NCBI GenBank assembly: GCA_018820395.1
Contig: JAHJOG010000219.1
Coordinates: 1 to 48,337 of the forward strand
DNA length: 48,337 nt
DNA from: Gammaproteobacteria bacterium
Lineage (GTDB): Bacteria; Pseudomonadota; Gammaproteobacteria; Burkholderiales; Burkholderiaceae_C
Reading direction: 5' to 3'
Of the stretch, positions 34,617 to 48,337 are shown one piece after another. A model generated the notes under the pieces. That model was not told the DNA's origin and did not search any database. It saw only the letters and a list, made by a program, of their open reading frames with translations. The position numbers and the translations under genes were made by a program. Numbering within the stretch: position 1 is the first letter of the stretch; every line of letters starts with the position of its first letter.

Positions 34617-37600
34617 TTACCAATGAAAGCCCACGCCTGCGGAAACGCCGACCTTGCCGCGCGAGTTGGCGGTTCCGCCGAGCTTGACGACCCAGCGGCC
34701 GTTGTCGGAAAGCTTGGACACACCGACCGCGATCGCGGCCTGTCCGTCGAAAGCCGCAACGCCTGCGGACACCATGCCTTTGCCCGGTAGGGTCGACTGC
34801 GGAAGGCCGGCCATCGCCATCGCCCCGGCGGTGCCGGCGCTGGCATCCTTGGCCGCGTTGCCGATCTCGCTGCGAAGCTGACCCAACTTGGAGTCGGTGT
34901 ACTGATTGGCGTTGGCCAGGCCTTGGTTCAGTTGGTTCACGTTGACGGCGTCGGTGCCCTCGACGCCCGGCGCGACGTTGGAAACCGTCGTGCCATTCGG
35001 CGCCTCGCCGTTGCCCAGCGTGATGTTGCGGTAGTTGACGCTGCCGTCCGCATTGGTTTCGTAGCGCACAGTGCCCGCCTGCGAAGCCTGCAATTGCCGC
35101 AGGTTGACCGCGTCGGTCGCTTGCGTGCCGCCTGCAACGTTGGTGATCTGACGCTCGTTGCCCGAGGTGCCGACCGACACCGCGCCTTGCGCAGAACTGA
35201 TGGCGACGCCCGACACCGCCTCGCGCTCGCCGCTGAGGCCCGCGCGCTCCGCCACCGCTCCCGCACCCAGCGCGACCCCGCCGGCGCTCGTGACGACGGC
35301 CCCGTTGCCCAATGCCGTTCCCTTGCTCGTGTTGATGGCGATCGCGCCATCGCCGAAGGCCGCGCCCCCGCCGCCCGCCTGTGCGCCCGCGCCGACGGCC
35401 ACGGAGTTTGTGGCGACGGCGCCGGTTCCGATCGCGATCGTGTTGACGCCTGTCGATTGCGAATTCAGACCGATCGCCACCGAACCGGTGTTGGTGGCCT
35501 GGGCGCCCTGACCCACGGCGACCGACGATGGGCCCGATGCCACACTTTGCTGGCCCACTGCGACGCTGCCCGCACCGCTGGCAGTGGCTCGATCGCCCGC
35601 CGCCACGGCGCTGTTTCCTGAAGCCGACGACGTCGGGCCCATGGCGGTGCTTTCGGCGCCGCTGGCCACGGAGTCCGAAGCGGTCGAGTTCGCGTGGAAG
35701 TACTTGATGCCTGCGCCTTGGTTGATGTTGTGAACGGCGTCGTTCAGATTGACCACTGAATTGCTCAGTCCACCCAGTGCGTCGCCCACGTTGTTGTAGG
35801 AATTATTGGTGGTGTTGCCGGCGGAATCGACATTGGTGATGGTGTAGCTCGGCCCGGTGATGCTGCCGTTCGCATTGATGGTCGTGCCGCCTCCGAGCGC
35901 ATCGGCGAAGGGACGCAATTGATTCACGTTGACCGCATCGGTACCCGCTGTACCGGCGGCAACGTTCGTGATCTGACGTTCAGACCCGCTCGCCCCCACC
36001 GAGACCACGTTCGCACGCCCGCCATCGCTGGAATTCGTGCCGAGGGCAACCGAATTGGTGCCCGTGCTGGTGGCCCCAGAACCGACGGCCGTGCTGTTGG
36101 TCGCACCCGCAGTCGGCGCCGCGTAGGCGGTCGGGTTGCCGGTGATCCACTTGTTGGCAGTGGTGATGGTTGCCGCGGTCAACTGATTCAGATTGACCGC
36201 ATCCGTTCCGGCCACGCCGGGTGCGACGTTGTGAATGATCGTGCCGCCGGCGCCGCCCAGGGTAACGGCGTTGTAGTTGATCGTTCCATCCGTGTTGAGC
36301 TCATACCGGATGCTTTCGTCGTGCAGGCGGCGAAGCTGCGCGATATTGGCTGCGTCCCCGTCTCCGGAGCCGGCCGCAACGCCGGTGATCCGGCGGTTGC
36401 CCACGTTGACTTCTCCAGCCGCGGCGCCGCCGACGAGGTAGGCCCCGTTGCCCAGGGTCGAGCCGTCTGCCACGGACCCGGCGCCCAGGGCGACGCTCCC
36501 CGCGCTGCTCGACACCGCGCCCTGGCCGATCGCCACGCTGTCTGCTCCGGTCGCCTGGCTATCTGCCCCGGTGGAGTTGGCGTGGAAGTACTTGGTGCCG
36601 GTGTCGTAGATGTTGCTGACGCGTCCATCGACATTGGCGACGAACGTCCCCAGGTTGGCGACGTTGGTATTGGTCGCGAACAGCTGGCTGCCGTTGACCG
36701 CGTCGGTGCTGGAGGCGCTGATCGACCCGGGCGCGAGGTTGGTGATGGTGGTTGATGCACCTCCCGCATTCAACGTGACAGTGGTATGGGTCGAGTTGTC
36801 GTACTTCACCGAATCGGCCGTTGCGCCGGCAGTGACCGCCCGCAGTTGGCTTACGTTCACTGCGTCCGTGTCCGTGGCGCCTGCAGCCAGGTTGGTGATC
36901 CGGCGCTCCTGCCCTGCGCTGCCCAGGCTGAGCTCGCCGACCGGCGCCGTCCCTGCGATGGGCGCCCCGGCAGTCGGTGTGTAGGCCGTGCTGCCGAGCG
37001 TCGCGCCGCTGGCGTTTGATCCCGCACCCAATGCCACGCTACCTGCATGGCTCGACACCGCACCTTGACCGATCGCCACGCTGTTGACACCAATCGCCTG
37101 GCTGTCGGCGCCGGTGGAATTGGCATGGAAATACTTGGTGCCGGTGTTGAAGATGTTAGTGACCCGGCCGTCCAGTGTGTTGACATCGCCGGCTACCCCT
37201 TCGATGGCCTGCTGGGCGGCAAACAGTTGGCTGCCGTTCACGCCGTCCGTGCTGGTCTGGGTGACTTGGCCCGCCGCCACCTGAGTCAACTGCCTTTCCG
37301 CGCCAACGCTTCCGAAGCTGACGGTACCCACCGGCGCGGCGCCAGCAAAGGAGTATGCGGTCCCGTTGATCGTCGCGCCTGACACGGCCACCTGAGATGC
37401 GAGGGCTCTGGAATTTGCGCCGATCGCCACAGAGTTGGCATTGGCCACCCGCGTTGCATTGCCAAGGGCCGTGCCATCGGCGACTTCGATGATCGAGTCG
37501 GTTCCGATGACGATGGCATTGGCACCCAGCGCGCGCGAGTTGTTGCCCATGACGATGGCGTTCGGGGCATTCACCGCCGTCGCTGCAATGCCGAGCACGA

Positions 37601-38198
37601 TGGCGTTCGACGACGCTACGTCGGCTTCGGAGTAGTTTCCGCCCATGACCATGGACCGGAACCCCCGGGCGCTTGTCTGCCCACCGATCGATATCGAGTC
37701 TGCTCCAAAGGCCACGCTTTCGTTGCCAATGGCGATCTGATCGCCTCCTTGGGTGCCGTCTCCGGTTGCTGAGGCGCTTCCGCCGATGGCGATGTTGCTT
37801 CCTCTGAGAGGCGTTAAAAATACTCCCAAAACCGGGGGCGCTTTGGCGTTGATACCGATGGCGATGTTCGAGTAGGGAATCGCAGTGCCCGGAGGCGAGA
37901 GGCCTTCCGAAGCAGCGGCGCCGCAGCCGATTGCGACAGCCGTCGCGTCGGCATTCGCCGCAGAGAACCCGGAGACCGCGCAGTTCGTGTCGGAAATTGC
38001 GGTGCCAGTGTCACCTGCGATACCGGATCCAATCGATTGAGCGCCGGCACTACCGATAAAGCCTGCCGCAAAGATGACCGCCAATGCGATCGAGGCCAAG
38101 TTTTGGGCGCTTGCTTTGCCGCGTGACTTGCTGTTCTCTGATGCTGCAATCCAGGTGCCGCGCGCTTCGCTCCAGACGGTGCGATATGTCTTGTTCAT
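34617..38198 (-). CDS. Trimeric autotransporter adhesin (YadA-like)
   Basis: 1193 aa type Vc secreted adhesin. The N-terminus is an extended signal peptide region (MNKTYRTVWSEARGTWIAA) followed by the hydrophobic core, cleavage predicted after Ala53 (GSAGA). The passenger has many YadA-head repeats of the form S/T-V-A-I/L-G (e.g. NSVAIGQGA, GSVALGAGS) alternating with neck/stalk motifs DAVN-x-NQL. A final coiled coil (ANQYTDSKLGQLRSEIG) and C-terminal YadA anchor (AMAGLPQSTLPGKGMVSAG to the terminal GVGFHW with aromatic end) complete it. ATG 38198 was chosen because ESPRs start MNK-x-YR and GGAAAG-type ribosome-binding bases precede it; a 17-codon upstream extension is unlikely. Confidence 0.94.
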   Translation of the reverse strand: MNKTYRTVWSEARGTWIAASENSKSRGKASAQNLASIALAVIFAAGFIGSAGAQSIGSGIAGDTGTAISDTNCAVSGFSAANADATAVAIGCGAAASEGLSPPGTAIPYSNIAIGINAKAPPVLGVFLTPLRGSNIAIGGSASATGDGTQGGDQIAIGNESVAFGADSISIGGQTSARGFRSMVMGGNYSEADVASSNAIVLGIAATAVNAPNAIVMGNNSRALGANAIVIGTDSIIEVADGTALGNATRVANANSVAIGANSRALASQVAVSGATINGTAYSFAGAAPVGTVSFGSVGAERQLTQVAAGQVTQTSTDGVNGSQLFAAQQAIEGVAGDVNTLDGRVTNIFNTGTKYFHANSTGADSQAIGVNSVAIGQGAVSSHAGSVALGAGSNASGATLGSTAYTPTAGAPIAGTAPVGELSLGSAGQERRITNLAAGATDTDAVNVSQLRAVTAGATADSVKYDNSTHTTVTLNAGGASTTITNLAPGSISASSTDAVNGSQLFATNTNVANLGTFVANVDGRVSNIYDTGTKYFHANSTGADSQATGADSVAIGQGAVSSSAGSVALGAGSVADGSTLGNGAYLVGGAAAGEVNVGNRRITGVAAGSGDGDAANIAQLRRLHDESIRYELNTDGTINYNAVTLGGAGGTIIHNVAPGVAGTDAVNLNQLTAATITTANKWITGNPTAYAAPTAGATNSTAVGSGATSTGTNSVALGTNSSDGGRANVVSVGASGSERQITNVAAGTAGTDAVNVNQLRPFADALGGGTTINANGSITGPSYTITNVDSAGNTTNNSYNNVGDALGGLSNSVVNLNDAVHNINQGAGIKYFHANSTASDSVASGAESTAMGPTSSASGNSAVAAGDRATASGAGSVAVGQQSVASGPSSVAVGQGAQATNTGSVAIGLNSQSTGVNTIAIGTGAVATNSVAVGAGAQAGGGGAAFGDGAIAINTSKGTALGNGAVVTSAGGVALGAGAVAERAGLSGEREAVSGVAISSAQGAVSVGTSGNERQITNVAGGTQATDAVNLRQLQASQAGTVRYETNADGSVNYRNITLGNGEAPNGTTVSNVAPGVEGTDAVNVNQLNQGLANANQYTDSKLGQLRSEIGNAAKDASAGTAGAMAMAGLPQSTLPGKGMVSAGVAAFDGQAAIAVGVSKLSDNGRWVVKLGGTANSRGKVGVSAGVGFHW
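36481..37142 (-). repeat. Duplicated YadA head-neck module inside the adhesin gene
   Basis: The stretch from GTKYFHANSTGADSQA to SVALGAGS occurs nearly identically twice, at about 37021-37142 and 36481-36599 on the minus strand, with a more diverged third copy starting near 35711 (GIKYFHANSTASDSVA). The DNA is also similar, indicating recent internal duplication and a site prone to length change by recombination. Confidence 0.7.
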
Positions 38199-38758
38199 GC
38201 TCTTTCCAAGCGTTTCAATGAGGGGGATTGCCGAGGGGTGAATACTCACTAGCCAGCGGCGGGACTAAGACTTAAGGCTGCGAATGGTGCCGAGCGCGCG
38301 CAGCGAAGCCGACCAGGCGCGACACTTGGTCAGAAATGGACGGGGGGCAGAATGAAAACTTGCGGCTTATTTCACGGCTGGTGCGGATGCCATCCGGAAA
38401 ACCAAAGGATGCAAGAGACGACGACGCGCAGTGCGCTGGACTGCGGCTGCATCAATTCATCAGAATCGTTTTCGCGAGCGGCCTCAGAATTGCCTGCGTT
38501 GTCACACATCAGGGGCGCACACACGCGCCCCGCCTCAGGCGAGAGCCGAAGGTGAATCAGGGAGAGCGACGCACGTGACCACCTCCGGACATTCGGCCGG
38601 AAGACGTTCTCGTCGCACACAAGCAGGCACGGCGTCGTTCCCATGACGGGGACGACGCCAGCAGCCTTCAAGCACACCTCAGCGTACTGCTGCCACCGGG
38701 TGTTTCATACCATCAAGAAATTTGCGGCGGTCACTCGGCCCACCTGCCGCGGCACAAG
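38199..38758. other. 560-bp intergenic region upstream of the adhesin gene
   Basis: Promoter region of the adhesin, followed by the 3' end of a small gene on the same strand. It holds a perfect hairpin GGGGCGC-N6-GCGCCCC (38512-38531) without T-tract. Open frames here are short and not protein-like. I see no RNA gene I can name. Confidence 0.4.
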
Positions 38759-41707: not shown

Positions 41708-43219
41708 TCAGAAACGCGGCAGGTCGGGATGCGGCAGCTGCCCACCTCGCACCACCTGCTTGCCGTACTCCGCACAGCGCTGCAGCGTTGGAATCACTTT
41801 GCCCGGGTTGAGCAGGCCCGCCGGATCGAACGCGCGCTTGACGCCGAACATCTGCTCGTTCTCGGCAGCGTCGAATTGCACGCACATGCTGTTGAGCTTC
41901 TCGACGCCCACGCCGTGTTCGCCCGACACCGTGCCGCCCATGGCCACGCTGGTCTCGAGAATGTCCGCGCCGAAGAGCTCGCAGCGATGCAGCTCGTCCG
42001 CATCGTTGGCGTCGAACAGCACCAGCGGATGCAGGTTGCCATCTCCCGCATGAAACACGTTGCAGCAGCGCAGGCCGTATTTCTTCTCCATCTGCTGGAT
42101 GGCCAGGAGGATGTCGGCCAGGCGCTTGCGCGGGATGGTGGAGTCGAGGCACATGTAGTCGGGGCTGATGCGGCCCGAGGCCGGAAAGGCGTTCTTGCGT
42201 CCGCTCCAGAACCGCAGTCGCTCGTCTTCGTTCGTGCTGATCGAAATCGCCGTGGCCCCGCACTCGCGCAAGACCTGCGTCATACGGCCGATTTCTTCCT
42301 CGACCTCTTCGGGCGTTCCGTCGGATTCGCACAGCAGGATGGCTTCGGCGTCGAGGTCGTAGCCCGCCTTGACGAACCCTTCCACGGCGGCGGTCATGGG
42401 CTTGTCCATCATCTCCAGACCGGCCGGGATGATGCCGGCCGCGATCACCGCGGCGACGGCATCACCGGCCTTTCGCACGTCGTCGAAGCTCGCCATGATG
42501 CAGCGCGCCAATTGTGGCTTGGGGACCAGCTTGACCGTGACCTCCGTGGTCACGGCCAGCATGCCTTCGCTGCCGATGACGAGCGCCAGCAGGTCGAGTC
42601 CCGGCGCGTCGACCGCATGGCTGCCGAATTCGATCACCTCGCCCTCGGCCGTGAAGCCGCGCACGCGCAACACGTTGTGCAGCGTGAGCCCGTACTTCAG
42701 GCAATGGACGCCGCCGGAGTTCTCGGCCACGTTGCCACCGATCGTGCAGGCGATCTGGCTCGAAGGATCGGGCGCGTAGTAGAGCCCGAAGGGCGCGGCC
42801 GCTTCGCTGATGGCGAGATTGCGCACGCCGCATTGCACGTCGGCCGTGCGGCTCACCGGGTCGATCTTCAGGATGCGATTGAACTTGGCCAGCGATAGCG
42901 TTACGCCCAGCTCGTGCGGCATCGCGCCGCCCGACAGGCCGGTGCCCGCACCACGCGCGACCACCGGCACCTTCATCGCATGGCAGGTCTTGAGAACCGC
43001 TTGCACCTGCGCCTCGGTTTCGGGCAGCGCCACGGCCAGCGGCCTTTGCCGATAGGCGGTGAGGCCGTCGCATTCGTAGGGCGCGACATCTTCCTCGTGC
43101 CAGAGCAGGGCATGCGACGGAAGAACGGCGCCGAGCGCCGAAGCCAGGGCGCGCCGGCGGGCCGCGCGATCGGAGCGACCGGCGGCATGCGATGAAGAAG
43201 CTTCGGTGGCGACAAGCAT
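41708..43219 (-). CDS. glcD: Glycolate oxidase, catalytic FAD subunit GlcD
   Basis: 503 aa FAD-linked oxidase that oxidises glycolate (and D-lactate in some members). The FAD motif is VVARGAGTGLSGGAMP; IGGNVAENSGGVHCLKYG and LALVIGSEGMLAV are conserved; the C-terminal domain has HAGDGNLHP and GEHGVGVEK with the metal/substrate histidines. Starts at ATG 43219; a TTG three codons earlier is possible. First gene of glcDEF. A perfect 8-bp inverted repeat lies 24 bp upstream. No glcG or malate synthase follows in this window. Confidence 0.95.
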   Translation of the reverse strand: MLVATEASSSHAAGRSDRAARRRALASALGAVLPSHALLWHEEDVAPYECDGLTAYRQRPLAVALPETEAQVQAVLKTCHAMKVPVVARGAGTGLSGGAMPHELGVTLSLAKFNRILKIDPVSRTADVQCGVRNLAISEAAAPFGLYYAPDPSSQIACTIGGNVAENSGGVHCLKYGLTLHNVLRVRGFTAEGEVIEFGSHAVDAPGLDLLALVIGSEGMLAVTTEVTVKLVPKPQLARCIMASFDDVRKAGDAVAAVIAAGIIPAGLEMMDKPMTAAVEGFVKAGYDLDAEAILLCESDGTPEEVEEEIGRMTQVLRECGATAISISTNEDERLRFWSGRKNAFPASGRISPDYMCLDSTIPRKRLADILLAIQQMEKKYGLRCCNVFHAGDGNLHPLVLFDANDADELHRCELFGADILETSVAMGGTVSGEHGVGVEKLNSMCVQFDAAENEQMFGVKRAFDPAGLLNPGKVIPTLQRCAEYGKQVVRGGQLPHPDLPRF

Positions 43220-43242
43220 GAATGACAAGGTTCGTTCGCGGA

Positions 43243-43261
43243 GTCGGCTAGGTTAGCCGAC
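43243..43261. promoter_or_regulatory. Perfect inverted repeat upstream of glcD
   Basis: GTCGGCTAGGTTAGCCGAC, arms of 8 bp around GGT, 24 bp before the glcD start. Either an operator for glcDEF or a stem in its 5' leader. Unrelated in sequence to the palindrome near gntR. Confidence 0.55.
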
Positions 43262-43290
43262 AACGCCCGCACGGCAGGGAAGGCCGCCAA

Positions 43291-43319
43291 TTGACCGTGT
43301 GCGATCTTACTTGTACTAT
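43291..43319 (+). promoter_or_regulatory. Sigma-70-type promoter of gntR-acnX operon
   Basis: TTGACC (43291-43296), 17-bp spacer, TACTAT (43314-43319). The best promoter match in the window. It overlaps a direct repeat TGTACTA (43312-43318 and 43322-43328) and abuts the palindrome at 43320-43335. Confidence 0.6.
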
Positions 43320-43335
43320 GATGTACTAATACATC
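43320..43335. promoter_or_regulatory. Candidate GntR/HutC-type operator
   Basis: GATGTACTAATACATC, perfect 6-bp arms around CTAA, directly downstream of the -10 box. Its inner GT-N6-AC with central TA fits HutC-subfamily sites, so autorepression by the adjacent GntR/UTRA regulator is likely. It is also upstream of glcD and could affect that operon. Confidence 0.6.
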
Positions 43336-43396
43336 TGAAAGAGAGTTCTGTTTGTGCGTTCGCTGTGGCTGCCGCAGCACATGATAGGAAAGTGAA

Positions 43397-44245
43397 ATGG
43401 CGGCTGCGAATCCTTCCAAGCTCAACCGCCACCACAGCGTGGCGCTCTACGTGCAGATCGCCGACCGCCTTGCCAAGGAAATTGCCGAGAAGCGCTACAA
43501 GGTCTTCGAGCGCCTGCCGACCGAACACGAGCTCATGGCCCGCCTGGGCGTCTCGCGCATCACCGTCCGGCAGGCGATCGCGCGGCTCGTGAGCCAGGGT
43601 CTGGTGGTGTCCAAGCAGGGCAAGGGCACTTTCGTGGCGGGCCCGGTGGTGCACCACGAGCTCGAGGAGCTCAAGGGCTTCTACGACACCCTGGTCGGTC
43701 AGGGCCACACGCCGCAAACGCAACTGCTCGCGTTCGGCCCCTTGCCGGCGCCGCCGGACATCGAGCAACTGCTCGGCGCTCCGCAGCCCAGCGCGATGTT
43801 CCTCAAGAGGCTCTATTCGCTCGAAGGGCGGCCCTTCGCGATGGTCCGCGCCTGGCTTCCCAGTGCGGCGCAGAGCGTCTCGTGGGACGACGCGGTTCGT
43901 CACCCGCTCTACGCGATCCTGCGCGACCTGCTGGGCTTGCCCGTGGCACGTGCCGAAGTGGGCATCGTCGCGCGCCAGGCCGACGACGAAGAGGCACGGC
44001 TGCTCGAACTCGAGCCGTCGAGCCCCGTGCTGGTGATGGAGCGCATGTCGCTTTCGAAAGACGGCCGCGCGCTGGAAATCTCGCGCTTCAGCATCCGGCC
44101 GGAGAACTATCGCTTCCGGCTGAGCGTGCAGGGGCCCCTGGCCATCACCAGCCAGATCCAGGAAACGACGGCCTCGCCACGCCGTGCAGCGCCCCCGGCT
44201 GCATCGGCCCCACGCCAACGCAAACCCAAGGAGAACAGCCAATGA
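43397..44245 (+). CDS. GntR-family (HutC/UTRA) transcriptional regulator
   Basis: 282 aa. The N-terminal winged helix (ALYVQIADRLAKEIAEKRYKVFERLPTE, recognition part SRITVRQAIARLVSQG, residues about 15-80) is followed by a UTRA effector domain (about 100-240, LEELKGFYDTLVGQG, then ISRFSIRPENYRFRL) and a disordered basic tail. UTRA domains bind small organic acids or sugar phosphates. Its stop overlaps the ATG of the aconitase X large subunit (ATGA), so regulator and enzyme are translationally coupled, and the effector is probably that enzyme's substrate or product. Confidence 0.93.
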   Translation: MAAANPSKLNRHHSVALYVQIADRLAKEIAEKRYKVFERLPTEHELMARLGVSRITVRQAIARLVSQGLVVSKQGKGTFVAGPVVHHELEELKGFYDTLVGQGHTPQTQLLAFGPLPAPPDIEQLLGAPQPSAMFLKRLYSLEGRPFAMVRAWLPSAAQSVSWDDAVRHPLYAILRDLLGLPVARAEVGIVARQADDEEARLLELEPSSPVLVMERMSLSKDGRALEISRFSIRPENYRFRLSVQGPLAITSQIQETTASPRRAAPPAASAPRQRKPKENSQ

Positions 44246-45483
44246 ACCTGACGACCGAAGAGCAAGCCATGCTCCGAGGCGACCGCGGGCCGGCCGTCAA
44301 GGACGCCCTCGAATACCTCATCAAAGTCGGCGAATTCTGGGGCGCCGAGCGACTCGTCGAAGTGACCAACGTGCACATGATGGGCGACATCGAGGTCATG
44401 GGCGACGGCGGCCTCAAGTGGCTCGAATGCACCGCCGACAAGCGCGCCAGTTGCGCAGTCAACGTGAGCACGAACGCGCGCTCCTTCGACTTTCCGCTCG
44501 TGGCACAACTGCATCAGGATCCCGCGGAGGCGACCAAGGAGCGCGCGTTGATCGGCCATCTGCAGAAGATGAACGTGACCACCACCGACACCTGCATCAA
44601 CTACCAGACGCTCTACCAGCCGCACCTGGGCGAGCGGGTGGCCTGGGGCGACACCGGCACCGTGATCTATGCCAACTCGGTGTTTGGCGCGCGCAGCAAT
44701 TTCGAAAGCGGCCCGGCTGCCTTTGCCGCCGGGCTGACGGGTCGCGTGCCGGAATATGGCTTTCATCTGGACCGGCATCGCAAGGGCACCTTCGTGGTTC
44801 AGGTCGATGCCGATCTCGACGACCTGGCGGACTGGGGCGCGGTTTCGAAGCTGGTCGGCGAGCCCAACCAGAGCTACTACCAGGTGCCCGTCTTCACGGG
44901 CATGAAGCGCAAGCCGAGCTCCGACGAACTCAAGCACCTCGGCGCGGGCCTGGCGAGCTATGGCTCGATGGGCATGTTCCACATGGTCGGCGTCACGCCG
45001 GAGGCGCCGACGCTGGAGGCCGCACTCGGCGGCAATACGCCGCACACCACGATGACCATCACCAATGCGGACCTCGAAAAGGTGTACGGCGGCTACGACT
45101 TGAAGGACGGCCGTTGCGACCTGATCGTGTTCTCGGGGCCGCAACTGTCGCTGTGGGAGCTCAAGGACCTTTCGGCCCTCTTCAAGGGCAAGAAGGTGTG
45201 CGAGGGCACGCAGGTCTTCGTCACCAGCAGCAACGGCGTGCATTCGGCCGCGCGAAAGGAAGGCTTCGTGCAGACGCTCGAAGCCGCGGGGGTCACGATC
45301 ATGGAAGGCGTCTGCTTCTACATCCTGCAGAACCTGTCGCAGATGCGGCAGCGCAACGGCTGGACCAACATGATTTCCAACTCGGCCAAGATCGTGAACA
45401 TCATCGGCGCGCACCGCTTCAACACCATCCTGCGGCGCACTGCCGAGTGTGTCGAGATCGCAACCACCGGGAGCCTGCGATGA
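44242..45483 (+). CDS. Aconitase X-like dehydratase, large subunit (DUF521), divergent
   Basis: 413 aa, aconitase X catalytic domain family. Known members dehydrate cis-3-hydroxy-L-proline or phosphomevalonate and form a complex with a small DUF126 protein. Family marks: LTTEEQAMLRGDRG start, VTTTDTCINYQTLYQPHLGER, VAWGDTGTVIYANSVFGARSNFESGP. Cluster-type cysteines seen are Cys118 and Cys358 (MEGVCFY). Where relatives usually read G-C-P-H this protein reads SGPQ (298-301), so one expected cysteine is missing. Strong ribosome-binding site AAGGAGA. Overlaps gntR and the small subunit by 4 bp each. Substrate unknown; a hydro-lyase on a hydroxy acid is the likely class. Confidence 0.85.
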   Translation: MNLTTEEQAMLRGDRGPAVKDALEYLIKVGEFWGAERLVEVTNVHMMGDIEVMGDGGLKWLECTADKRASCAVNVSTNARSFDFPLVAQLHQDPAEATKERALIGHLQKMNVTTTDTCINYQTLYQPHLGERVAWGDTGTVIYANSVFGARSNFESGPAAFAAGLTGRVPEYGFHLDRHRKGTFVVQVDADLDDLADWGAVSKLVGEPNQSYYQVPVFTGMKRKPSSDELKHLGAGLASYGSMGMFHMVGVTPEAPTLEAALGGNTPHTTMTITNADLEKVYGGYDLKDGRCDLIVFSGPQLSLWELKDLSALFKGKKVCEGTQVFVTSSNGVHSAARKEGFVQTLEAAGVTIMEGVCFYILQNLSQMRQRNGWTNMISNSAKIVNIIGAHRFNTILRRTAECVEIATTGSLR

Positions 45484-45902
45484 GCAAGGTGCTGCATACC
45501 GTCAAGGTCGACCGGGCCTTCGGCGACGTGGTCGAAGGCGAAGCCGTGGTGTCCGAAGAGGGCTTCAGTCCGCGCTATGACCTCGACCGCTGGAGCGGAC
45601 TCATTTCCAAGCCCGGCCACAAGCTCGAAGGCACGCAGATCAGGGACAAGATCTGCTTCTTCCCGACGGCCAAGGGCGGCATTGCCGCGGGATGGGCGTA
45701 CTACGACATCAAATGCAAGGGCATCGCGCCGAAGGCACTGATCTTCGGCGTCACCAACCCCGTGATGGTGCAGGGGGCGATCTTCGCGAACATGACCATC
45801 ACCGAAGGCTGGTCGCGCGAGCCACGCGAGTTCGTCAAAACGGGCGATTGGGTGCGCGTCGACCCCGCGCGTGGCGTCATCGAGGTGCTCGAGCGTCCCT
45901 GA
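45480..45902 (+). CDS. Aconitase X-like dehydratase, small subunit (DUF126), divergent
   Basis: 140 aa, swivelling-domain partner of the large subunit. The segment SGLISKPGHKLEG-(x)-KICFFPTAKGGIAAGW aligns with the family's P-x-x-R-G-S loop that donates the catalytic Ser; here it reads KGG (65-67), so the Ser is replaced by Gly. The rest (APKALIFGVTNPVMVQGAIFANMTITEG) is normal for DUF126. The ATG overlaps the large-subunit stop. Either the chemistry differs from characterised enzymes or another residue takes over. Confidence 0.85.
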   Translation: MSKVLHTVKVDRAFGDVVEGEAVVSEEGFSPRYDLDRWSGLISKPGHKLEGTQIRDKICFFPTAKGGIAAGWAYYDIKCKGIAPKALIFGVTNPVMVQGAIFANMTITEGWSREPREFVKTGDWVRVDPARGVIEVLERP

Positions 45903-45965
45903 ATCCGAACCCGGAAGATGCGTTGCAGTGAAGCGAGAGTTCTGGCTAGCGTGAGTGCGAGCGGG

Positions 45966-45981
45966 AGCGGCTTTTGCCGCT
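45966..45981. terminator. Hairpin between the aconitase X and SMP-30 genes
   Basis: AGCGGC-TTTT-GCCGCT, perfect 6-bp arms in the 116-bp gap between converging genes. No T-tract after the stem on either strand. Confidence 0.4.
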
Positions 45982-46018
45982 GCCGCCGGGGCGCGCGACA
46001 AGGCGCAGGAGCGCGGCC

Positions 46019-46942
46019 TCAATCGTCGAAGAAGTCGACCGGCAGGCCCCGCGCGTCGACCTTCATCGCGACCACCTGGCCCGAGGCGGGCCGGGCTTCG
46101 AGTTCGGTGGCGGGGCGATTCTCTCTGGACGTGGTCACGAACAGGATGTTCAGGTCGTCGCCGCCGAAGCACGGCATGGTCGGGCATTGCGCGGGCACTG
46201 CGAGCGCCGCGGTCTGCTCGCCCGAGGGCGAGAACCGCAGCACCTGGCCGCCTTCGAACATGGCGGACCAGTAGTTGCCCTCCGCATCCACCGTGGCGCC
46301 GTCCGGCCGGCCTGCGTAGCCCCGGGGCGTCTCGGGGTCCCAGCCCTTCGGCTTGCCCGCGAAGTCCTTGAACACGCGCGGCCTGGACAGTGCGTTGGCT
46401 TCGACGTCCCAGTCCCAGGCGCGAATGCGATGGGCCGGCGTGTCGGACCAGTACATCTGCGTGGCATCGGGCGAGAAGGCGAGGCCGTTGGCGGTGGTTG
46501 CCTCGTTGGCCATCGGCACGAGCGCAGGCGTCCGCCCTTGGCGCGCGTCGAGGCAATAGAGCGTGGCGCTCGGCCGGTCTTTGGCTTCGTTGATGGTGCC
46601 GGCCCAGAAGCGACCGAGGGGGTCGCACTTGCCGTCGTTGAAGCGCATCGTCTTCGTGTCGAAATCGGCCGCGGCCATCAGCGACAGTGCGCCGCCCCAT
46701 TCTTTCGCGCGGTAGACGCCGTCGCGCAGCGCGATCACCCATCCACCGCGGCGCGCTGGCGCGATGCAGCCCGGCTCGCTCGGCATGCGCCAGCGCTCGA
46801 CGCGTGCACCTTTTTCGATGTCGCCGCGCGTCCTGAGAATGGTGCGGCCCGGGATGTCGACCCAGTAGAGCGAGCGCTCCTGTGGATGCCAGAACGGCGA
46901 TTCGCCGAGTTCGCAAAGACTGTCCGCAAGCGTGATCCACAT
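46019..46942 (-). CDS. SMP-30/gluconolactonase-family protein
   Basis: 307 aa six-bladed beta-propeller lactonase. Metal ligands of the family are visible: Glu14 (CELGESPFWHP), an Asn in TTANGLAFSPD, and Asp in WSDTPAHRI; FNDGKCDPLGRFWAGTIN carries the second conserved Asn-Asp. It hydrolyses sugar lactones, often L-arabinono-, gluconolactone or similar. It stands alone, converging on the aconitase X operon; a joint pathway is possible but not shown. The protein starts MWITLADSLCELGE. Confidence 0.92.
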   Translation of the reverse strand: MWITLADSLCELGESPFWHPQERSLYWVDIPGRTILRTRGDIEKGARVERWRMPSEPGCIAPARRGGWVIALRDGVYRAKEWGGALSLMAAADFDTKTMRFNDGKCDPLGRFWAGTINEAKDRPSATLYCLDARQGRTPALVPMANEATTANGLAFSPDATQMYWSDTPAHRIRAWDWDVEANALSRPRVFKDFAGKPKGWDPETPRGYAGRPDGATVDAEGNYWSAMFEGGQVLRFSPSGEQTAALAVPAQCPTMPCFGGDDLNILFVTTSRENRPATELEARPASGQVVAMKVDARGLPVDFFDD

Positions 46943-46958
46943 GCTTTCGATTGTGCAC

Positions 46959-46992
46959 AAAAAAGCCCGCGGCACCGGGGCGCCGCGGGCTT
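46959..46992 (-). terminator. Rho-independent terminator of amtB
   Basis: Read on the minus strand: stem AAGCCCGCGGC / GCCGCGGGCTT with an 8-nt loop, followed by six T. The only textbook intrinsic terminator found in the window. It lies 46 bp after the amtB stop codon. Confidence 0.85.
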
Positions 46993-47037
46993 GTCCTTGG
47001 GCGCCGCAGGACGCGACGCCAGAGGTGAAGCGATCGC

Positions 47038-48337
47038 TTACCTGTTGTAGGCCGTCTCGCCGTGGGACGAGATGTCGAGGCCTTCGCGCTCTTCTTCTTC
47101 CGTCACCCGCAGGCCGATGGTCAGGTCGGCGATCTTGTACGAAACGTAGGCCACCACGCCCGACCACACCACCGTGAGCGCCACACTCTTGATCTGGATC
47201 CAGACCTGCCCGCCCATCGAGAAGGTGTCCGGCGTCAGACCGCCGGTGCCACCCAGGCTTTGCGACGCGAACACGCCCGTCAGGATGGCACCCAGGATGC
47301 CGCCGACGCCGTGCACGCCGAACACGTCGAACGCATCGTCCGCGCCCAGCATGCTCTTGAGACCGCTGACGCCCCAGAGGCACACCACCCCGGCGAGGAG
47401 GCCGAGCACGATCGAGCCCATCGGCCCGACGAAGCCCGCTGCAGGCGTCACCGCCACCAGTCCGGCCACGGCACCCGAAGCGGCACCCAGCATCGATGCC
47501 TTGCCCTTGTGCAGCGCCTCGCCCATGATCCACGACAGGGCCGCAGCTGCGGTCGCGAGCACGGTGTTGACGAACGCCAGGCCGGCCACGGCATTGGCCG
47601 CACCCGCCGAGCCGGCGTTGAAGCCGAACCAGCCCACCCACAGCAGCGAGGCACCCACCATCGTCAGCGTGAGCGAATGCGGCGTGAAGGCTTCCTTGCC
47701 GAAGCCGATGCGCTTGCCCAGCACGTAGGCGCCGACCAGTCCGGCCACGCCGGCGTTGATGTGCACCACCGTGCCGCCCGCGAAGTCGAGTGCGCCGTCC
47801 TTGCCCAGGAGGCCGCCGCCCCAGACGATGTGCGCGATCGGCACATAGCTGAAGGTGAACCACAGCACCGAGAAGAGCAGCACCGCCGAGAACTTGGCGC
47901 GTTCGGCGAACGACCCCACGATCAGTGCCACGGTGATGGCCGCGAAGGTGCCCTGGAAGGCCACGAACACGTACTCGGGAATCGTCGTCAAGGCGCCGAA
48001 GGTTTCCTGCGTCACGCCTTTCAAGAAGATCTTGTCGAAGCTGCCGAAGAAGTTGCCCTCGCCGACGAACGCCAGGCTGTACCCGTAGATCGCCCAGAGC
48101 AGGGTGATCAGCGAGAAGATCACGAACACCTGCATCAGCACCGACAGCATGTTCTTCGAACGACCGAGGCCGCCGTAGAACAGGGCCAGGCCGGGGATCG
48201 TCATCATGATGACCAGCAGCGTGGAAGTCAGCATCCACGCCGTGTCGCCGGAGTCGATCTTGGGAGCGGGTGCGGCCGCGGCGGGCGCTGCGGCCGGTGC
48301 CGCAGCCGCAGGTGCCGTGGCCGCGGGCGCTTCGGCC
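47038..48337 (-). CDS. amtB: Ammonium transporter AmtB (5' end outside window)
   Basis: Over 430 aa visible, running off the window edge. Amt/Mep/Rh channel with eleven helices: MTIPGLALFYGGLGRSKNML, WAIYGYSLAF, DFAGGTVVHINAGVAGLVGAYVLGKR (with the pore His) and GVHGVGGILGAILTGVFA (second pore His). The C-terminal LRVTEEEEREGLDISSHGETAY is the PII (GlnK) contact region. Ahead of the first helix is an Ala/Pro-rich segment ending APKIDSGDTAWM, longer than in E. coli AmtB and probably an exported N-terminal extension after a signal peptide. glnK is expected upstream, outside the window. Confidence 0.95.
   Translation of the reverse strand, partial: AEAPAATAPAAAAPAAAPAAAAPAPKIDSGDTAWMLTSTLLVIMMTIPGLALFYGGLGRSKNMLSVLMQVFVIFSLITLLWAIYGYSLAFVGEGNFFGSFDKIFLKGVTQETFGALTTIPEYVFVAFQGTFAAITVALIVGSFAERAKFSAVLLFSVLWFTFSYVPIAHIVWGGGLLGKDGALDFAGGTVVHINAGVAGLVGAYVLGKRIGFGKEAFTPHSLTLTMVGASLLWVGWFGFNAGSAGAANAVAGLAFVNTVLATAAAALSWIMGEALHKGKASMLGAASGAVAGLVAVTPAAGFVGPMGSIVLGLLAGVVCLWGVSGLKSMLGADDAFDVFGVHGVGGILGAILTGVFASQSLGGTGGLTPDTFSMGGQVWIQIKSVALTVVWSGVVAYVSYKIADLTIGLRVTEEEEREGLDISSHGETAYNR

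Follow-up and report, generated by a model that had tools for sequence, protein, structure and literature searches.

In a 48,337-nucleotide stretch of contig JAHJOG010000219.1 from a Gammaproteobacteria bacterium of the Burkholderiaceae_C (hereafter the window, meaning the whole stretch at its full length), we found a type II aconitase X (AcnX) protein without the serine that serves as the general base in characterised AcnX. Its two subunits are encoded directly behind a GntR-family regulator. We propose that the three genes form a self-regulated catabolic module. Its enzyme would be an iron-sulfur heterodimer with the AcnX fold, acting on an imported carboxylic acid by elimination of water or of a different oxygen leaving group. 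We put the probability of this reading at roughly 0.6. The same residue changes are found throughout a clade of 105 large subunits, the window's included, and in the 100 clade small subunits that were found. The genes and the codons discussed below, with the corresponding residues of the solved enzymes AtAcnX (At) and TkAcnX (Tk), are:

43397..44245, plus strand: GntR-family regulator with a UTRA domain, 282 amino acids (Pfam)
44242..45483, plus strand: AcnX large subunit, 413 amino acids (Pfam, alignment with solved AcnX chains, predicted fold)
45480..45902, plus strand: AcnX small (swivel) subunit, 140 amino acids (Pfam, alignment, predicted fold)
44593..44595, plus strand: Cys118 codon, large subunit, at the cluster ligand At Cys273 / Tk Cys110; Cys in 105/105 of the clade
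44650..44658, plus strand: Asp137-Thr138-Gly139 codons, large subunit, in place of AtAcnX Glu292-Ser293-Asn294; 105/105 of the clade, with Glu-Ser in 44/44 others
45133..45144, plus strand: SGPQ codons 298-301, large subunit; Gly299 lies at the Tk Cys283 / At Ser449 site (alignment)
45313..45315, plus strand: Cys358 codon, large subunit, at the cluster ligand At Cys508 / Tk Cys342; Cys in 105/105 of the clade
45388..45390, plus strand: Lys383 codon, large subunit, at the catalytic At Lys530 site; Lys in 104/105 of the clade, with one gap
45573..45575, plus strand: Arg32 codon, small subunit, at the substrate-pocket At Trp35 site (Tk Leu27); Arg in 100/100 of the clade
45663..45680, plus strand: PTAKGG codons 62-67, small subunit; Gly67 lies at the base serine site, At Ser70 / Tk Ser62; Gly in 100/100 of the clade, Ser in 28/28 others

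An earlier note, made from the DNA letters, had described a UTRA regulator and two AcnX subunits with 4-bp overlaps, and the gene coordinates and the Pfam matches bear this out. Both junctions are 4-bp ATGA overlaps. The matches are well above the family cut-offs for GntR (3.6e-21; 75 bits, cut-off 27), UTRA (3.5e-29; 101.9 bits, cut-off 23.8), AcnX (4.8e-112; 375 bits, cut-off 31.5) and the AcnX swivel domain (2e-20; 72.9 bits, cut-off 27). The assembly of the source genome holds one AcnX above the family cut-off, and a second match falls below it. The structure predictions involved 18 and 15 sequences. The predicted fold of both subunits is that of AcnX, with TkAcnX (7cnr/7cns) as the best structural match of each. 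Together with Cys118, Cys358 and Lys383, which hold the places of two cluster cysteines and the catalytic lysine, this agrees with the earlier statement that the fold signatures persist.

As described for the aconitase superfamily, the cluster iron acts as a Lewis acid and a serine acts as the base. We placed the residues of the window protein by alignment with the solved AcnX chains. At Ser70 and Tk Ser62 are the general bases of AcnX types I and IIb according to the accessible part of PMC8184944, to which all statements from this source are limited. The window protein has Gly67 at this site, so the earlier observation that the active-site serine is replaced stands, and it extends to the whole clade. 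In the alignment, the AKGG loop of the clade contains no conserved Ser or Thr. A Thr or Ser stands two places past the Ala69 site in four sequences of one lineage (lineage B, see below), while the other lineage has Ala or Gly there (20 small subunits). The idea that a neighbouring residue supplies the serine has no conserved candidate in the alignment; Ser30 is common to other AcnX too.

The note had also read the missing cysteine of SGPQ as the loss of a cluster ligand and as a mark of a separate class. The first part is right for archaeal type IIb enzymes, where a Cys at that place is a cluster ligand, but not for the characterised type I AtAcnX, which has Ser449 there and uses Cys510 as the ligand (PMC8184944). 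In the window protein the At Cys510 site is Tyr360, and no conserved neighbouring residue replaced the third Cys in the alignment. The second part had to be given up. The missing third Cys is not distinctive because AtAcnX has Ser449 and type IIa enzymes, which are characterised cis-3-hydroxy-L-proline (C3LHyp) dehydratases, potentially have two cluster cysteines only (PMC8184944); moreover, both third-cysteine sites are without Cys in 11 of the 44 AcnX outside the clade. On the alignment it is the missing base serine, unlike the missing third Cys, that sets the window protein apart.

A further change concerns the glutamate at At 292. In the accessible part of PMC5144071 the sites numbered Cys275, Glu294 and Cys516 are termed completely conserved in AcnX, and the clade breaks with this statement at the Glu site. 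Here the window protein has Asp137. At the At Tyr534 site it has Ile387.

To define the clade we used 149 distinct large subunits, including that of the window. They came from searches of related loci, genomes and plasmids, which gave 200 matches before copies were merged; large-subunit matches spanning fewer than 370 residues were dropped (e.g. L075, L076, L077, L080 and L104). A small subunit could be paired with 128 of the 149, and the remainder were single-chain type I enzymes and contig ends. The relatives were collected mainly by similarity to the window, so neither the size of the clade nor the ratio of 105:44 is informative on abundance. Asp-Thr-Gly was present in 105 of the large subunits and Glu-Ser-x in the remaining 44. 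The third-Cys site of the clade is Gly in 72 and Ala in 33 sequences, and the motif around it reads S[GA]PQ (Ser 98%, Gln 100%). The At 510 site is Tyr in 105/105. At the At 534 site the clade has Ile in 83, Thr in 20 and gaps in two, and the other AcnX have Tyr in 43/44. Ala69, like Arg32 and Gly67, is found in 100/100 clade small subunits, and the non-clade small subunits have Trp (25), Asn (2) or Val (1) at the site of Arg32. Several further polar residues are invariant or nearly so and confined to the clade, namely Arg32, Tyr33, Asp34, Arg37, Asn93 and Gln98 in the small subunit and Asp49, Glu51, Glu100, Tyr212, Gln301 and Asn386 in the large subunit.

In a tree of 90 of the 152 alignment rows (44 of them clade), from which 12 trait columns were left out, the clade forms one side of a single branch with a Shimodaira-Hasegawa-like approximate likelihood ratio test (SH-aLRT) value of 99. 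The tree program flagged some long branches, including that of the clade row L206. A clade which consistently has SGP and KGG had been named as the sign of a new subfamily, and S[GA]PQ and AKGG do occur together on this branch. It comprises a window-like lineage A of 83 sequences, at least 59% identical to the window, and 22 sequences at 41-44% identity, which are lineage B (Cupriavidus, NT-26, Sulfitobacter and others) and the deep row L206. At an E-value of 1e-80 or better, 36 of the 399 genomes sampled from the order gave a match. The residue changes are common to the whole clade and are therefore not a sequencing accident. Selection on the clade genes is purifying, with a low ratio of nonsynonymous to synonymous substitution rates (dN/dS). 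Random decay was rejected on the basis of this low dN/dS and the uniformity of the changes across the clade.

Four replacements are thus found together in the clade (Glu to Asp, Ser to Thr, base Ser to Gly and pocket Trp to Arg), with two of the three cluster cysteines and the lysine kept. From this we infer an active enzyme that would use another base and another substrate than the known AcnX. In the mechanism we propose, the cluster would be held by Cys118 and Cys358, and Asp137 would sit at the open iron, by analogy with the placement of Glu292 in AtAcnX. Thr138 and Lys383 would hold the reacting carboxylate and the beta-oxygen group would leave with assistance of the lysine. A second negative group may be bound by Arg32 and Arg37 of the small subunit; the substrate would then probably be a hydroxy-di- or tricarboxylate, because an arginine occupies the former hydrophobic pocket and receptors of tripartite tricarboxylate transporters (TTT) and of tripartite ATP-independent periplasmic (TRAP) transporters are encoded beside other clade members. 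The alpha-proton could be taken by another clade-specific residue; candidates are Tyr33 and Asp34 in the small subunit and Asp49 and Glu51 in the large subunit. The GntR/UTRA protein would repress the operon until the substrate or product is bound.

At somewhat less than even odds, the clade could represent a serine-free class of the aconitase superfamily, which combines a two-Cys cluster and Asp with a relocated base, acts on a new imported di- or tricarboxylate and is induced through GntR. Candidate segments for the base of such a class, judged by conservation, are the Arg-Tyr-Asp-Leu-x-Arg loop of the small subunit and the Asp49/Glu51 loop of the large subunit.

The neighbouring genes suggest an imported carboxylate as the substrate. 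A gene for TctC, the TTT receptor, follows AcnX on the same strand at a distance of up to 1.3 kb in 50 of 97 loci and precedes it in 21 of 91; 64/105 loci have one in either place. In distal bins of equal size, counted on both strands, TctC was present in 5/71 and 4/72. It was present in 4/17 loci of other AcnX types from the same order. Any transporter (TctC, TctA, SulP, MFS, TRAP or NMT1-type) was within 2.5 kb in 78/105 loci; the flank on one side was short in 21/105. Among the matches of the window locus there was no gene of these transporter types. The closest GntR-linked relatives, L189 and L190 (80 and 79% identical), have the gene order DctQ-DctM-GntR-AcnX (large, small)-DctP. The remaining partners were varied and included an amidohydrolase with a cupin, a sulfatase, an AstE/AspA-type deacylase, a GMC oxidoreductase with an aldehyde dehydrogenase, an acyl-CoA dehydrogenase and a carboxyltransferase.

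Several observations weigh against the proposed catabolic module. Within 6 kb of the window copy the matches include no TctC or TRAP gene, and some of these bacteria have very many TTT receptor genes. The profiles of the neighbour search were built from clade loci, which favours finds there, and the loci are partly close kin, so the neighbour counts are not independent. The operon partners differ widely, which makes one common substrate less likely. The structural model is weakest around Asp137 (predicted local distance difference test, pLDDT, of 64-75 for the block) and Gly67 (69), and the alignment of loop 47-51 is uncertain because of a one-residue insert.

Regarding the regulator, the substrate may, as suggested earlier, be sensed by the adjacent gene product. 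A GntR/UTRA gene of the window type recurs in both lineages, but only 14/105 loci have it upstream on the same strand at 1.3 kb or less, directly adjacent in 6 of the 14, so most clade members manage without it. The six lineage-B cases have about 1 kb between the regulator and AcnX, usually holding a TctC gene. The regulators of L189 and L190 are 65% identical to that of the window and those of 12 others, from both lineages, 40-48%; orthology was judged by identity alone. For comparison, the full-length neighbouring regulators of L019 and L020 are 34-35% identical to it, and the few UTRA-type matches in control loci cover 54-65 residues only. The window regulator reached the NCBIfam cut-off of none of the 25 families listed, of 28. 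Upstream of its gene we noticed a possible binding site:

43320..43335, no strand assigned: 16-bp palindrome, candidate operator for the GntR protein, without conservation in near relatives

The palindrome core is expected 0.02 times in the window. The exact palindrome occurred in 3 of 243 loci, all three of them copies of the window, and no match with up to one mismatch was found in L189 or L190. No common site emerged from a crude palindrome scan upstream of 14 related GntR genes. We rejected the palindrome as a conserved operator, as the exact site is restricted to the window copies and missing from near relatives.

The divergent neighbours of the window module are the genes for the glycolate oxidase subunits GlcD, GlcE and GlcF. 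On its other side (46019-48234, minus strand) lie an SMP-30/gluconolactonase-type gene, convergent with the AcnX operon, and then an ammonium transporter gene. The glcDEF genes raise the possibility of a glycolate-linked enzyme, in which AcnX would split or dehydrate a compound to give a product for oxidation by GlcDEF, with GntR controlling both divergent units. Examples would be a carbon-oxygen lyase freeing glycolate from a carboxymethyl ether of malate, or a dehydratase of the 3-hydroxyaspartate type. Carboxymethyloxysuccinate lyase is an activity of the ether-splitting kind; to our knowledge no sequence is assigned to it, and our literature search returned carboxymethyloxysuccinate in incidental mentions only. 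In favour of such a link, 4/105 loci (the window, L184, L176 and L142) have GlcE within 6 kb of AcnX, and 7/105 have a GlcD-type gene within this distance. On plasmid NT26_p1 (L142, 5677-17224) the AcnX pair is part of a glc-type operon, with the order SulP, AcnX large and small, malate synthase G, heme-binding protein, GlcD-like, GlcE-like, GlcF and acs. L144 has a GlcD-like gene directly upstream, with fumarase and succinate dehydrogenase-type genes near.

However, 98/105 loci are without a GlcD-type gene within 6 kb, some of them with short flanks, and GlcD was found once each in 19 of 21 genomes, the window's own included (E 1e-100). In two of eight same-genus regions the interval from glcD to the SMP-30 gene contains a LysR-type gene but lacks GntR-AcnX, with flanks syntenic on both sides; the other six gave only glcD matches and their surroundings were not syntenic. 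The stretches compared are 43116-46132 in the window, 8899-10433 in L236 and 8699-10126 in L239, with LysR identified by Pfam on L236 only. By this synteny the GntR-AcnX module is an insertion or replacement at the glcD/SMP-30 site. The glc link is weak since glcDEF is common in the genus and LysR occupies the same site in relatives, and it may be accidental. We rejected the glcDEF linkage as proof of function and consider a glycolate-linked enzyme unlikely.

Another explanation would be a catalytically dead relative of AcnX that only binds, for example a sensor, scavenger or scaffold left after the loss of the base serine and the third cysteine. The equivalents of the base Ser, Tyr534 and Glu292, which carry catalytic weight in types I and IIb (PMC8184944), are indeed replaced. 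Against this, the two cluster cysteines are invariant, the lysine is missing only at the one gap, and the new polar residues are fixed throughout the clade. The subunit genes also stay side by side under purifying selection in catabolic-type operons, and we regard a dead enzyme as quite improbable.

A known AcnX activity, C3LHyp or phosphomevalonate dehydratase, is very improbable in spite of the same family and fold and of the two cluster cysteines likewise proposed for type IIa (PMC8184944), as the clade differs at the base, amine, ring and carboxylate residues, the NCBIfam equivalog score is 210.2 bits against a cut-off of 700 (the model is a single chain, so a split enzyme scores at a disadvantage) and the annotated neighbour families, limited to the commonest, included no recognised hydroxyproline or isoprenoid genes.

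In terms of individual residues, the window protein has Arg32, Ala69, Met47, Thr138 and Ile387 at the defining sites of C3LHyp dehydratase, and Cys118, Gly299 and Cys358 at the type IIb trio of Cys110, Cys283 and Cys342. As these defining residues are lacking, we read the clade as a variant inside the AcnX fold family that is neither of the two dehydratases. Type IIa resembles it in the split subunits, the two cluster cysteines and the retained catalytic Lys (PMC8184944). Rows that we take as type IIa by their residues are similarly without Cys at the At Cys510 site (Tyr, Val or Ile). They keep Glu292, Ser293, Tyr534, the base Ser, Trp35 and the amine-binding Asp203, whereas the clade has Asp, Thr, Ile/Thr, Gly, Arg and Met at these sites. 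The type IIb phosphomevalonate dehydratase TkAcnX (PMC8184944, PMC10040528) is also a heterodimer, and shares two of the three cysteines besides being the best structural match. However, its Cys283, Glu129, Ser62 and Thr63 are not conserved in the clade, and type IIb belongs to the archaeal isoprenoid pathway while the clade occurs in bacterial catabolic-type operons. The large subunits of isopropylmalate isomerase and homoaconitase (4kp1, 4kp2) are more distant, with 12-14% identity in the structural alignment and cluster ligands that differ from those of AcnX (PMC8184944).

The earlier proposal of a separate enzyme class holds as far as a serine-less clade lies on one branch, but its cysteine argument fails and uncharacterised types had been named before. 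These are types IIc-IIf, bacterial two-subunit AcnX of unknown function that are without the landmark residues of either known activity (PMC8184944, PMC10040528; accessible parts). By description the clade is probably one or more of them. The accessible part of PMC8184944 does not mention a loss of the base Ser in types IIc-IIf. Our literature search, whose coverage left out most subscription papers, including the 2017 paper on type IIa, returned no characterised member of the clade. If our reading is true, a broad clade without the serine, with the cluster site and lysine in place, would demonstrate that another base can take over. An acid degradation route not recorded so far would then also be likely in these bacteria, which by their record titles are known mostly from soil, groundwater and freshwater. 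To identify the substrate, the linked GntR proteins and solute receptors could be used directly.

Some additional observations were made among the relatives. In two of the dropped clade relatives the large-subunit frame is broken, by an in-frame TGA in L104 and into two open reading frames in L075, which may be decay or assembly errors. Six metagenome-assembled genomes (L034, L054, L060, L063, L071 and L078) are titled Bordetella parapertussis; their loci resemble environmental betaproteobacterial ones by gene order or by sequence and the labels look doubtful. A separate group in the tree consists of 14 bacterial two-subunit AcnX (L090, L093, L095-L096, L100, L106-L109, L135, L137, L138, L140 and L187), which combine a type IIb-like Cys (14/14; GCPH in 13) with a type I-like pocket Trp. 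L146, from a Cupriavidus necator plasmid, and L207 are about 36% identical to the window AcnX. They keep the base Ser, carry Asn in place of Trp35 and branch separately in the tree. Elsewhere in the window, the minus strand of 34617-38249 encodes a trimeric autotransporter adhesin with YadA head, stalk and anchor domains.

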